Assembly (NCBI RefSeq): GCF_021730615.1
Contig: NZ_JAJLMN010000001.1
Span: forward strand, 4,599,501-4,663,500
DNA length: 64,000 nucleotides
From: Lichenibacterium dinghuense
Lineage (GTDB): Bacteria; Pseudomonadota; Alphaproteobacteria; Rhizobiales; Beijerinckiaceae
Direction of reading: 5' to 3'
Below, one piece after another: positions 4,793-9,971 of the stretch. Numbering within the stretch: position 1 is the stretch's first letter; every line of letters begins with the position of its first letter. The notes beneath the pieces are model-generated. The model saw nothing but the letters and a program-made list of their open reading frames with translations, did not search any database and was not told the DNA's origin. A program made the position numbers and the translations under genes.

Positions 4793-5476
4793 ATGACCAA
4801 GCCCACCGTCCTCGTCTTCGACGTCAACGAGACCCTGCTCGACATCGAGACCCTGGAGCCGCTGTTCCTGCGCGTCTTCGGCGACGGCGCGGCGATGCGG
4901 GACTGGTTCGCGCAGCTCGTGCTCCATTCCCAGTCCGCGACGCTCGCGGGGTTCTACGCCCCTTTCGGCGCGCTCGGGGCGGGCGTGCTCCGCATGCTGG
5001 GCGAGATCCGCGGGCGGCCCGTGTCGGACGCGGACGTGGCGGAGCTCACGGCCCGCACGCTCGGCCTGCCGGCGCACGCCGACGTGCTGCCGGCGCTGGA
5101 GCGCCTGCGCGGCGCCGGCTTCCGCCTCGTCACCCTGACCAACTCGGCGCCCGACCCGGACGTCAGCCCGGTCGAGCGCAGCGGCATCGGGCGCCTCGTC
5201 GAGCGGCAGTTCAGCGTCGATGCCGTGCGCCGCTTCAAGCCGGCGCCGGAGGTGTACCGGCAGGTGTCGGACGCGCTGGCGCTGCCGCCCGGCAGCTTCT
5301 GCCTCGTGGCGGCCCACGGCTGGGACACGATGGGCGCGCAGGGCCTGGGCTGGGCCGGCGCCCTGGTGACGCGCCCCGGCAACGCGCCGCTCGCGGTGCC
5401 AGGCCTGCCGGCGCCGGACCTCGTCGCGCCCGACATGGCGGCGTTGGCGGAGATGGCGATCGCGGCCTGGCGGTGA
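4793..5476 (+). CDS. Haloacid dehalogenase type II (HAD superfamily)
   Basis: A 227-residue cytosolic HAD hydrolase of the (S)-2-haloacid dehalogenase type. Motif I is FDVNETLLD, with the Asp nucleophile at position 10 and Asn in place of the second Asp usual in phosphatases. Motif II is TLTNS, motif III is KPAPEVY, and the acidic motif is reduced to VAAHGWDTMGAQ. These are the substitutions seen in dehalogenases rather than phosphatases. The real substrate may not be halogenated. It stands alone between rlmJ and a RidA gene. Confidence 0.85.
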   Translation: MTKPTVLVFDVNETLLDIETLEPLFLRVFGDGAAMRDWFAQLVLHSQSATLAGFYAPFGALGAGVLRMLGEIRGRPVSDADVAELTARTLGLPAHADVLPALERLRGAGFRLVTLTNSAPDPDVSPVERSGIGRLVERQFSVDAVRRFKPAPEVYRQVSDALALPPGSFCLVAAHGWDTMGAQGLGWAGALVTRPGNAPLAVPGLPAPDLVAPDMAALAEMAIAAWR

Positions 5477-6000: not shown

Positions 6001-6183
6001 GAGCTACCCCTTCCGGCGCCGGCCCTCGCCGGCCGCTCCACATCGTCAACGAGGTCTGAAAGCAACGCTTTGGTCATTCTGCCCCTTGCGGGCCGTTTAA
6101 CCTTGCCGATTTACAGTCATCCGGTGTTCATTTTCCAGAAATCGCCGGCGTCCACTGTCAGCTCAACAGAAGGACGGGCCACC

Positions 6184-6651
6184 ATGCAGATCGAAATCGC
6201 CACTTCGACGAACGTCACCCCGATCTCCGCGCCGGCGATCGCCGGCCGGTCCGACATCGTGCCCGGCGACGTGGCGTCGCTGCACCGCCACCTCTTCGCC
6301 GATGGTTCGCTCGACCGCGCCGAGGCCGAGGCACTGTTCGACCTGGAGCGGGCGGCGCTGAGCCGCTGCGACAGCTGGACGAGCTTCTTCATCCAGGCCG
6401 TGACCGACCACGTCGTCTGGGGCGCCCGTCCCACGGGCCGTCTCGACGAGACCCAGGCGGAGTGGCTCCTCGCCCAGGCCGACGCGGCCCGCACCCCGGC
6501 CTCCTTCGCCCTCCTGGTCAACGTGCTGGACGAGGCCCAGACCGTGCCGTCCTGGTTCGCGGGCGCCGTGCGGGCGCGGGCGGTGGCGGGCTGGCCGGGC
6601 CTGTCGCGGGGCGAGGACGCCTTCTCGCGCCCGCTGCGGATGGCGGCGTGA
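6184..6651 (+). CDS. Conserved hypothetical protein, 155 aa
   Basis: Not a family I can name. The protein is soluble and mostly helical, with an acidic N-terminal half (RHLFADGSLDRAEAEALFDLERA), then a Trp-rich central part (DSWTSFFIQAVTDHVVWGARP, EAEWLL-like) and an Arg-rich end. I start at the ATG preceded by GAAGGA. The upstream in-frame extension from 6070 covers an AT-richer leader that looks like promoter DNA. The 5' leader suggests a monocistronic gene. Confidence 0.7.
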   Translation: MQIEIATSTNVTPISAPAIAGRSDIVPGDVASLHRHLFADGSLDRAEAEALFDLERAALSRCDSWTSFFIQAVTDHVVWGARPTGRLDETQAEWLLAQADAARTPASFALLVNVLDEAQTVPSWFAGAVRARAVAGWPGLSRGEDAFSRPLRMAA

Positions 6652-7825: not shown

Positions 7826-7910
7826 GCGGCCATGGCGGAATTGGTAGACGCGCTAGCTTGAGGTGCTAGTGGGGAGACCCGTGGAGGTTCGAGTCCTCTT
7901 GGCCGCACCA
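7826..7910 (+). tRNA. tRNA-Leu (anticodon GAG)
   Basis: An 85-base class II tRNA with encoded CCA. The 7-base acceptor stem GCGGCCA pairs with TGGCCGC, the anticodon stem is CTAGC/GCTAG with loop TTGAGGT (anticodon GAG), there is a long variable arm, and the T-arm contains GGTTCGAGTCC. The discriminator is A, as expected for leucine. It reads CTC and CTT codons. Confidence 0.96.
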
Positions 7911-8066: not shown

Positions 8067-8168
8067 CTGTCCGAGGTCCGAGCGAATCACGCGCTCGACG
8101 CTGGACGTCCCGCGCGGTAGCTCCGTCTCGGCCGGCATCGGAGCCCGGTTCAGGACGGAGGCGGTCGG

Positions 8169-8678
8169 TTGGACCAGGCGGCGCGGCGCGAACCTTTGAC
8201 GCTCTACCTCGACGTGGACGGCGTCCTGACGACGGCCGGCTACCAGCGGCGCGCCGGGGCGGACAGGCTCGACCCGGCCGAGGTCGCCATCGTGGCCTCG
8301 CTCGTGCGCGACCTCGGCGGGGTCGTGGTGGTGTCGTCGACCTGGCGCGTCGCCGACTGCAGGCCGACGCTGGTCGCGGCGGGCCTGCCTGCGGGCTGCT
8401 TCCACGCCGACTGGCGCACGGCCATCCCCGACACCAGCCGCGACCCGGAGACCGGCGGCATGCTCCCCGCCGACAGGGCGCGGCGCGGCGACGAGATCGC
8501 CGAGCATGCCGCCCGCAACGGGATCACCCGCTACCTCGTGCTCGACGACGTCGACGTCGGCCTTGCGCATCGCGGACGCCACGTCAGGCCCGATCCGGAG
8601 TGCGGAATCACCGAAGCGGAGGGCGCCCTCGCGCGCGAGCTGGTGGCTCGCATGGACGCCGCGTCGGACGGGAAGTGA
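8169..8678 (+). CDS. HAD-like phosphatase domain protein (Swiss Army Knife RNA repair type)
   Basis: A 169-residue HAD-fold protein beginning LTLYLDVDGVLT (motif I with both Asp residues, DVDGV), then VVVSSTWR (motif II region, Ser/Thr) and YLVLDDVDVG (acidic motif). This DVDGVL...SSTWR...LDDVD pattern is the one of small HAD domains described in RNA-repair-type proteins and phages. The start is a TTG with GGAGG upstream; no ATG is available before motif I. There is no evident partner for RNA repair nearby, so the biochemical role is open. Confidence 0.75.
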   Translation: MDQAARREPLTLYLDVDGVLTTAGYQRRAGADRLDPAEVAIVASLVRDLGGVVVVSSTWRVADCRPTLVAAGLPAGCFHADWRTAIPDTSRDPETGGMLPADRARRGDEIAEHAARNGITRYLVLDDVDVGLAHRGRHVRPDPECGITEAEGALARELVARMDAASDGK

Positions 8679-8808
8679 AAAATTCCTGAACGCGCGCGCG
8701 GAGATCCTTCGAAGCCGTTGATCTTCGCCCCGATTTGCCCCAAATCATGACGGTGGCATGACGCTCGCGTCGCGCCGCTCCCGACATCGCCTGGTCATCG
8801 AGACCTCG

Positions 8809-8828
8809 GCCGGACGTGCCCGTCCGGC
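8809..8828. other. Perfect hairpin (8-bp stem, 4-base loop)
   Basis: GCCGGACG and CGTCCGGC flank TGCC, forming an uninterrupted 8-base-pair stem 130 bases after the HAD stop and 77 bases before the next start. No T tract follows. It may limit readthrough from the HAD gene or lie in the 5' leader of the next gene. Confidence 0.45.
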
Positions 8829-8905
8829 TGCCCCACCTCGCCGCTCCCGTGCGGCCGGGGGGAGCTTGGCGTCGGGACGTTCGCCGGCAGGAAGGAGGGG
8901 CTGCG

Positions 8906-9643
8906 ATGTTCATGACGAGGAAGACCACGAAGACGTCGCGGCGCTCGCTGGCGTCGCTCGGCATCGCCGAGCGGTCGGCCGCGAAGGGCCACGGGGCGCT
9001 GGTCGCCGCCGGCTGGCCCGAGATCGGCTACGGGTACCACGGCAGCGTCCACGCGCATCCCGACCACCCGGACGTGGTCGTGCGCTTCGCCCGCAAGGCC
9101 GACGGATTCGGCGACTACGCGGCCCTGCTGCGGCGCGGCTTCGCGGGCTCGAACGGGCCGCACGCGCCGCGGGTCCACGACATGCACGTCAGCCGCTGCG
9201 GCGCGCTGATGACCGTCTCGTCGCGCTTGGCCGAGCCGCCGCGCGATGCTTGGTGGCTGCCCTTCGCCCACGCGGTGATCGCCGACCACCCCGGCATGCC
9301 GATGGACGAGGGCGTGCGGGCCCGGTTCAGGGCGGAATGGCCGGCCCACGAGCCCGCGGTCGACCACCCAAGCTTCGATGGGATCCGGGAAGCCTTCCGG
9401 GCCGCCTGGCCGGGCTACGAGCCCTACGTCGCGGCTCTGCGGGCGGCCGCCCCGCGGGCGCTGGACCCGAACGTCGGGAACGTCCTCGTGGGCCTCGACG
9501 ACAGCCCCGTCGTCAACGACCCGCTGTGCGACGATGGCGCCGGCCTGTGGCGCTCGACTCTGTCGCGGTCGCTGGCCCAGGTCGGCGAGGCGCTGCGCGA
9601 CGCGCTGTTCGGGGCGTGGCGGAAGGCTCCGGCCGCGGCCTGA
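8906..9643 (+). CDS. Hypothetical protein with degenerate kinase-like motifs
   Basis: A 245-residue soluble protein I cannot assign by name. Motif order resembles a divergent protein-kinase/phosphotransferase fold. There is a Gly-rich loop GYGYHGSV (residues 41-48), then VVVRFARK (57-64, the Lys strand), DPNVGNVLV (187-195, like the catalytic-loop D...N) and VVNDPL (202-207, in place of DFG). Similar short kinase-like proteins occur in phages. The catalytic HRD histidine is absent. I start at ATG 8906 because GAAGGAGGGG lies just upstream; the frame is open to 8816. Enzymatic activity is not established. Confidence 0.6.
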   Translation: MFMTRKTTKTSRRSLASLGIAERSAAKGHGALVAAGWPEIGYGYHGSVHAHPDHPDVVVRFARKADGFGDYAALLRRGFAGSNGPHAPRVHDMHVSRCGALMTVSSRLAEPPRDAWWLPFAHAVIADHPGMPMDEGVRARFRAEWPAHEPAVDHPSFDGIREAFRAAWPGYEPYVAALRAAAPRALDPNVGNVLVGLDDSPVVNDPLCDDGAGLWRSTLSRSLAQVGEALRDALFGAWRKAPAAA

Positions 9644-9725: not shown

Positions 9726-9890
9726 CTATGCGGCCCCTTCGCGGCGGGTGACGACGAGGGCCCAGATCGTCGCCGGGATCCAGCCGATCACGGTCAGGTG
9801 CAGGATGATGCACAGCACGCCCTGGATGACGTGGCCGCGCAGAAACATCGCGAGCCAGGGCGCGATGAAGCAGATCAGAATCATGAGCAT
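9726..9890 (-). CDS. YqaE/Pmp3 family membrane protein
   Basis: A 54-residue two-helix membrane protein: LMILICFIAPWLAMFL forms helix one, then a short loop with the family's Gly and Gln, then VLCIILHLTVIGWIPATIWAL forms helix two, ending VVTRREGAA. This is the compact Pmp3/YqaE (UPF0057) layout of stress-associated proteins that affect membrane potential. It is short enough to be missed by standard callers. Likely monocistronic. Confidence 0.88.
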   Translation of the reverse strand: MLMILICFIAPWLAMFLRGHVIQGVLCIILHLTVIGWIPATIWALVVTRREGAA

Positions 9891-9971
9891 GGTTGGGTCG
9901 GCTCCCGGGCCGTGTGTCTCGTCGCGGCCAACGCGGCTCCGACCGCGCCGTTCCCCGTGCGGGGCGGCGCG

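Follow-up and report, generated by a model that had tools for sequence, protein, structure and literature searches.

A putative chromosomal kinase-fold relative of the T7 gp0.7 kinase as half of a candidate mobile HAD_SAK_2, four-arm RNA and kinase cassette

A kinase-like gene and its motifs

The window, a stretch of 64,000 nucleotides of Lichenibacterium dinghuense contig NZ_JAJLMN010000001.1 (positions 4,599,501 to 4,663,500), belongs to a bacterial chromosome in a 6.1-Mb genome of 5 contigs. It contains a kinase-like open reading frame preceded by a strong Shine-Dalgarno sequence, and searches of the host genome found this open reading frame in single copy. The features of the locus, in window positions, are:

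8100-8168, + strand: left end of the cassette, upstream of the HAD gene, placed by multiple alignment; promoter-like GCTGGACG at 8100 and GGTAGC at 8116
8169-8678, + strand: predicted HAD_SAK_2 phosphatase-like gene, 169 aa; Pfam PF18143 at 60.7 bits (cut-off 27.5)
within 8169-8678, + strand: HAD motifs I, YLDVDG (D15, D17); II, SSTWR; and IV, LDD (D126, D127), from alignment
8718-8746, + strand: promoter-like TTGATC-N17-CAAATC, from the 25-locus alignment; TTGAAC-N17-CATTCC in many Methylobacterium loci
8747-8761, + strand: possible 4-codon mini-ORF ATGACGGTGGCATGA; by eye, ATG in 24/25 loci and GTG in L023
8753-8778, + strand: leader hairpin 1, of TGAC...GTCA type; one pair changed on both sides in 3/25 loci
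8781-8875, + strand: predicted four-arm cloverleaf-like RNA, about 95 nt; closing stem P1 (CCGAC.../...GUCGG) and arms P2, P3 and P4
8890-8899, + strand: Shine-Dalgarno of the kinase-like gene, GGAAGGAGGG; its GGAAGGAG block is kept in alignments
8906-9643, + strand: gene for the predicted kinase-fold protein, 245 aa, ATG at 8906 and stop ending at 9643; distant T7 gp0.7 relative
9026-9049, + strand: Gly-rich loop GYGYHGSV, residues 41-48
9083-9085, + strand: Arg60, at the beta-3 lysine position
9464-9481, + strand: catalytic-loop equivalent D187-PNVG-N192, with no HRD histidine
9518-9526, + strand: DPL (D205), the DFG equivalent; DPV, DPY or DPL in phage kinases

One genome from each of 84,980 species was scanned with a sequence pattern, and the 25 loci returned comprise 24 relatives and one chance match. 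The latter, in Pseudarthrobacter (L029; 41% over residues 21-76), arose from the motif HAHPDHPD in a frame that does not give the protein and was left out of everything. The closest named match is from Lichenibacterium minor, at 79% identity. Alignment A1 comprises the window and 23 intact relatives from Lichenibacterium, Methylobacterium and one Beijerinckiaceae metagenome-assembled genome, 69-79% identical to the window; locus L027, with its frameshifted kinase gene, was left out. In that locus, from Methylobacterium sp. J-088, the frameshifted gene lies at 6001-6276 and the HAD gene and leader RNA are intact. The mean pN over mean pS of the kinase-like gene is 0.26 (253 pairs from 23 sequences, with L011 and L027 left out), and the open reading frame is a real gene under purifying selection.

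The original prediction read four kinase-like motifs in the protein, all of which are present: GYGYHGSV (residues 41-48), VVVRFARK (57-64), DPNVGNVLV (187-195) and VVNDPL (202-207). Residues G41, G43, G46, R60, D187, N192, D205 and P206 are invariant in 24/24 rows of A1, and the D-x4-N-x12-D spacing of D187, N192 and D205 equals that of the catalytic Asp, Asn and Asp of PKA (D166, N171 and D184). The predicted absence of an HRD histidine was borne out, the residues around the catalytic Asp reading x-L-D-P-N and not H-R-D in all A1 rows. The assignment of K64 as the Lys-strand lysine did not hold: the beta-3 lysine column of the phage kinases aligns to Arg60, so K64 is not the VAIK lysine. The general motif reading therefore stood, with the beta-3 Lys-to-Arg change overlooked, as were the linked HAD gene and RNA.

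Lys-to-Arg substitution at beta-3 often abolishes catalysis in kinases, and mammalian KSR, with Arg at this position, is thought to act as a pseudokinase scaffold. The protein could be a catalytically dead scaffold, bound to nucleotide or to a partner (the HAD enzyme and the leader RNA are candidates), which it would regulate without phosphotransfer. The invariance of Arg60, the missing HRD histidine and the short C-lobe are consistent with such a scaffold. The invariance of D187, N192 and D205 argues the other way, a fully kept catalytic D/N/D set being unusual for dead kinases, as does the recurrence of a beta-3 Arg in 6 of 14 complete other cellular relatives (counted by eye). We hold this explanation only tentatively.

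Fold and kinship with the T7 gp0.7 kinases

For the kinase-like protein Pfam gave no family up to E 10, and so neither a Pkinase nor a HipA match; no NCBIfam kinase model matched; and the T7 kinase PHROG was reached only at E 0.12, which is not significant. The link to the T7 kinase was therefore built through intermediates. One is a Bosea plasmid protein, 31% identical over 44% of the query (E 7e-4), which in turn matches the serine-threonine kinase family phrog_2828 at E 4.8e-6 and the gp0.7 kinases of T7-like phages weakly (E 7e-3 to 5e-2; 26-27% identity over 88% of its length). The other, a protein of genome G238, is matched by profile A1 (E 4.9e-5, 23 bits) and matches the T7 kinase PHROG at E 3.3e-11. 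Comparing the family with a profile of 13 phage kinases, hhalign gave a probability of 92.4% (E 5.2e-7) over residues 30-94, which cover the N-lobe only, and D187, N192, D205 and P206 are invariant in a joint alignment of 42 sequences (24 family and 18 phage rows). These intermediate sequences and profiles point to the kinase-like protein as a distant relative of the T7 gp0.7 kinase.

With the gp0.7 family (phrog_15752, phrog_2828) the protein has in common the N-lobe motifs, the D-x4-N-x12-DP catalytic segment and, by prediction, the kinase fold. It differs at the beta-3 position, with Lys in 13/13 phage kinases of alignment A3 and Arg in 24/24 family sequences, and in length: gp0.7 runs to residue 359, whereas the protein described here ends at 245, 38 residues past DPL, without the basic C-terminal shut-off domain. 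Its gene is also chromosomal, with a linked HAD gene and RNA. We do not claim membership of the gp0.7 family proper, because the protein has neither the beta-3 lysine nor the shut-off domain and its gene does not lie in a phage; built like the gp0.7 kinase domain, it may work like one. None of 50,697 phage records matched it, and none of 38 pattern matches in viral contigs was confirmed as a relative. The earlier expectation that such proteins occur in phages thus held for the nearest characterised relatives, the T7 gp0.7-type kinases, but not for this gene, which lies on a bacterial chromosome.

Structure prediction and fold comparison, proposed with the original prediction, found a kinase fold, so that the refuting outcome named there, a predicted structure lacking this fold, did not arise. 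An AlphaFold2 model with phage relatives in the alignment reached pLDDT 78.4 and pTM 0.74, and its strands and helices follow the order seen in kinases, whereas the 24 A1 sequences alone gave an unusable model (pLDDT 39.7); the good model therefore leans on the phage sequences in its alignment. In a Foldseek search of the PDB, all 50 matches listed were kinase-fold enzymes (best E 1.0e-4; TM-scores only about 0.3), mainly APH(2'') and FN3K, together with methylthioribose kinase, Cph001 and protein kinases. The 50 matches listed by VIA were protein kinases or, like IRE1 and RNase L, proteins that contain a kinase domain, with a top Z of 8.3, where about 8 is middling on the tool's own scale. 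Among viral predicted structures the best match, at E 5.0e-9, was to the protein kinase of a Pantoea phage, and phage protein kinases made up many of the 50 listed. A PDB carboxypeptidase match over the D/N/D segment (E 0.021) was taken as chance because the fold search disagrees with it.

The aminoglycoside phosphotransferases and FN3K, small-molecule kinases among the best structural matches listed, have the kinase-like fold in common with the model. Over the matches listed, identity to them is 8-19% at a TM-score of about 0.3, there is no Pfam family match, and the chain of 245 aa is shorter than the 257-302 residues of most of those listed. A protein-kinase fold for the protein is well supported by the model, leaning on the assumption of homology to the phage kinases.

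A broader profile found members in 7/367 genomes of the class, 5 of them outside the window's family, and kinase-like relatives also occur on Bosea and Acidiphilium plasmids. Two genomes hold several T7-type kinase-like genes: G332 has four in a row on one strand (L198, 4409-7478), and G238, of about 2 Mb, has four at three sites (L195-L197), three with Lys and one with Arg at beta-3. The Acidiphilium plasmid relative (L202, 4974-5663; AHPDHPDIVVRIAAEADGF) has genes for an IcmT/TraK family protein and a T2SS/T4P/T4SS ATPase nearby, and there seems to be an insertion between the D and the N of its catalytic-loop region. On the Bosea sp. RAC05 plasmid pBSY19_1, about 110 kb separate the gene for a kinase-like protein from that for a HAD_SAK-type protein (L030, L035). 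No HAD gene was found beside other cellular relatives in 10 stretches from 8 genomes or plasmids, and the translations around the plasmid HAD relatives L035-L037 showed by eye no obvious kinase-like neighbour.

The HAD gene, the leader and the extent of the cassette

The gene ahead of the kinase-like gene encodes a stand-alone short protein that scores well above the curated cut-off of HAD_SAK_2 (PF18143, 'RNA repair' HAD in Pfam). It also matches phrog_1818 (E 7.2e-14), and D15, D17, D126 and D127 are invariant in 23/23 rows of its alignment A5 (L011 and L020 left out). The start codon is TTG in 24/24 readable loci, the window included (L011, with its left end cut, was left out), and mean pN over mean pS is 0.32 (253 pairs). 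From its sequence the protein is predicted to be an RNA-repair phosphatase. Compared with HAD_SAK_2 at large it is tied to the kinase-like gene, and the RNA-repair role comes from the family name only. The accessible part of PMC11090510 does not mention this HAD family.

About 165 nt between the two genes are strongly conserved in the alignment of 25 loci, within a HAD-to-kinase gap of 186-350 nt. The conserved 8718-8746 element looks like a promoter placed before the leader RNA; in a promoter scan its TTGATC-N17-CAAATC did not qualify as a sigma-70 consensus. At the head of the leader, the window and 24 loci have the pattern ATGAC(A/G), two codons and TGA, which could encode a leader peptide or simply follow from the fixed TGAC spacing.

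Folded separately, the 25 loci gave four stems in 25/25 minimum-energy structures, with a mean z of -2.56 and 16/25 below -2; the end points and arm criteria behind these figures were chosen after a first look at 7 sequences, which had z from -0.96 to -3.04 and of which one (L015, cut shorter) lacked the closing stem. Folds at fixed offsets had a mean z of -1.55, with 7/23 below -2, and 11 control segments of the two genes had mean z from -0.48 to +0.70. For the window, positions 8778-8879 folded at z -3.33. Covariation support is modest, because the sequences are related and only 2/33 leader RNA pairs show double (compensatory) changes. Rfam gave no match close to the gathering threshold, and over the leader no match at all. 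The predicted RNA may be a leader controlling the kinase gene, or a functional RNA itself.

The same data bear on an explanation in which the intergenic block is promoter and operator DNA only and the fold is incidental to GC-rich palindromic sites. The TGAC/GTCA repeats do resemble operator half-sites, compensatory changes are as few as stated, and a longer window segment of 145 nt is barely more stable than its shuffles (z -1.32; 23/200 as good). Such DNA would not readily account for four stems in every separate fold, for a leader mean z below all 11 control segments, or for conservation that extends as far as the Shine-Dalgarno sequence, and we regard an operator-only block as unlikely.

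The HAD_SAK_2 gene, the four-arm RNA and the kinase-like gene, in that order, make up a cassette of about 1.5 kb. By per-locus medians, DNA conservation begins 700-856 nt before the kinase ATG in 24/25 loci, the exception being L006; median left ends range from -214.5 to -856, with 13/25 at or beyond -800 and 11/25 between -700 and -800. Matches from pairwise blastn with the window as query stop at -752 (about 8154); the left end at 8100 is therefore taken from the multiple alignment. The 8100-8168 segment may act as a promoter, judged by its sequence; a scan of it returned no sigma-70 consensus match. Conservation ends near the kinase stop, and 4/25 loci have a pair match past +800, up to +1070 (L011/L027). 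The HAD gene precedes the kinase-like gene in 24/24 other loci, whereas 12 other nearby window open reading frames were matched in 0/24; of these 12, 9738-9900 was probably translated out of frame, and some of the rest may be non-genic.

Among 248 sampled genomes of the family, 7 carry the kinase-like gene, and the RNA (model R1, E below 1e-20) and the HAD gene (E below 1e-80) occur in the same 7; at these strong scores the three parts are never apart in the sample. Two of the 6 same-genus genomes sampled carry the kinase-like gene. HAD and kinase distances are correlated (r 0.62; 0/2000 permutations), as is the divergence of the cassette parts generally (r 0.59-0.71; 0/2000 permutations each). 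Weaker matches were taken as chance or distant: one to the HAD protein in G539 (E 2.8e-13), and those of R1 in G466, G611 and G616 (E 9.5e-4 to 3e-3) and within the kinase gene of L018 (E 0.0048). Two divergent copies of the cassette, of VVRFARK and VVRLARK types, lie on different contigs of Methylobacterium sp. Leaf117 (L009, L015).

At the nucleotide level, 11/300 locus pairs have a flank of 300 bp or more in common; flanks were of unequal length (short in L011, L012, L013 and L020), and diverged synteny could be missed because only nucleotide matches were compared. Among 120 flanking open reading frames taken by a crude rule from 24 loci, the commonest families occurred in 3/60 and 2/60 (families listed: 25 of 71 and 25 of 84, so that single-hit families are incompletely covered), and those listed were mostly ordinary genes, with ArdC N-terminal and MPTase-PolyVal domains once each. 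A defence-island or transposon setting was rejected, no family listed being in more than 3/60 flanking open reading frames, and a conflict role therefore rests on patchiness and phage relatives. Searches of phage records and viral contigs did not find the cassette, its close form was on no plasmid searched, and PADLOC 2.0.0 had no family for either protein up to E 10.

Some loci lie close to tRNA genes. In the window, tRNA-Leu (GAG) at 7826-7910 ends about 190 bp before the cassette, and in L. minor (L005) tRNA-Arg (CCT) at 4878-4954 lies about 0.2 kb before it; in L027 tRNA-Met lies about 0.3 kb after the cassette, in L021 a tRNA is about 1.1 kb away, and in L023 and L024 the tRNA is further off. 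Integration at tRNA sites is unsupported, 19/24 other loci having no tRNA in the stretch around the locus, and no terminal repeats were seen by eye at the cassette ends.

The cassette could also be a routine stress-response operon, found in Lichenibacterium and Methylobacterium, whose leader is riboswitch-like and which has no part in phage conflict. This reading would agree with the mostly ordinary flanking families listed, with the purifying selection on the genes and with the absence of the close form from the plasmids searched. It sits poorly with a presence in only 7/248 family genomes and with loci that lie mostly at different sites, and appears improbable to us. Patchy spread, many sites and phage relatives of both proteins fit a conflict module better than housekeeping.

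A mobile kinase and phosphatase unit

Co-occurrence, fixed order and correlated divergence suggest that the HAD gene, the RNA and the kinase-like gene form an undescribed three-part gene unit; no description of such a cassette was found by title or abstract start in the open-licence literature, preprints excluded. By sequence and model the kinase-like protein is predicted to be a pseudokinase or an atypical kinase, encoded in a constant arrangement with a foldable RNA and a phosphatase-like partner. The reading that we prefer, with a probability of about one in two, is that of a chromosomal kinase-fold relative of the T7 gp0.7 kinase forming half of a mobile HAD_SAK_2, four-arm RNA and kinase cassette. 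T7 gp0.7 serves host takeover and rewiring by phosphorylation, and the cassette would probably be a mobile phosphorylation and dephosphorylation unit for phage or element conflict, a function that we infer. The kinase-like protein would bind ATP and Mg and either phosphorylate, with altered kinetics, a target of the host or of an invader, or serve as a nucleotide-sensing scaffold; the HAD enzyme would take phosphate off the same or a linked substrate; and the leader RNA, transcribed with the kinase, would set the timing of kinase production.

A two-gene, patchy mobile unit also brings to mind toxin-antitoxin logic, in which the kinase-like protein would be a growth-arresting toxin in the manner of HipA, the HAD protein an enzymatic antidote and the leader RNA a limit on the toxin. 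According to the accessible part of PMC4858673, translation factors, RNA polymerase and RNA enzymes are among the proteins on which the T7 kinase acts, targets in keeping with such a toxin. DS-6, the HipA-related kinase system of DefensePredictor, is likewise a two-gene unit with a kinase, although the accessible part of its description gives it a DUF3037/DUF1829 partner in place of the HAD phosphatase-like protein found here, and the kinase-like protein has no HipA Pfam match (PMC13092281). The genes of the cassette are separated by the conserved region and do not overlap, the antidote gene would have a TTG start and the toxicity is putative, all of which makes a toxin-antitoxin system rather unlikely.

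A further and more speculative proposal, which we consider quite unlikely, is a three-part mobile immunity or RNA-damage module. The tRNA-like RNA would be a sensor or decoy, the HAD and kinase-like proteins would act on RNA ends or RNA-processing proteins, and RNA damage would switch the kinase on; the kinase would have common ancestry with that of T7 and belong to the same arms race.

In the parts of the sources accessible, gp0.7-like kinase homologues have been called exclusive to Autographiviridae (PMC12345140), and a GenBank search with the T7 kinase is described as finding no putative cellular ortholog, with the question asked whether the phage exploits a host kinase network (PMC4858673). 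With its own phosphatase-like partner and predicted structured RNA, a conserved cellular branch would make the question of a host kinase network testable in environmental bacteria, and would provide a natural example of a kinase fold in which Arg replaces the beta-3 lysine.
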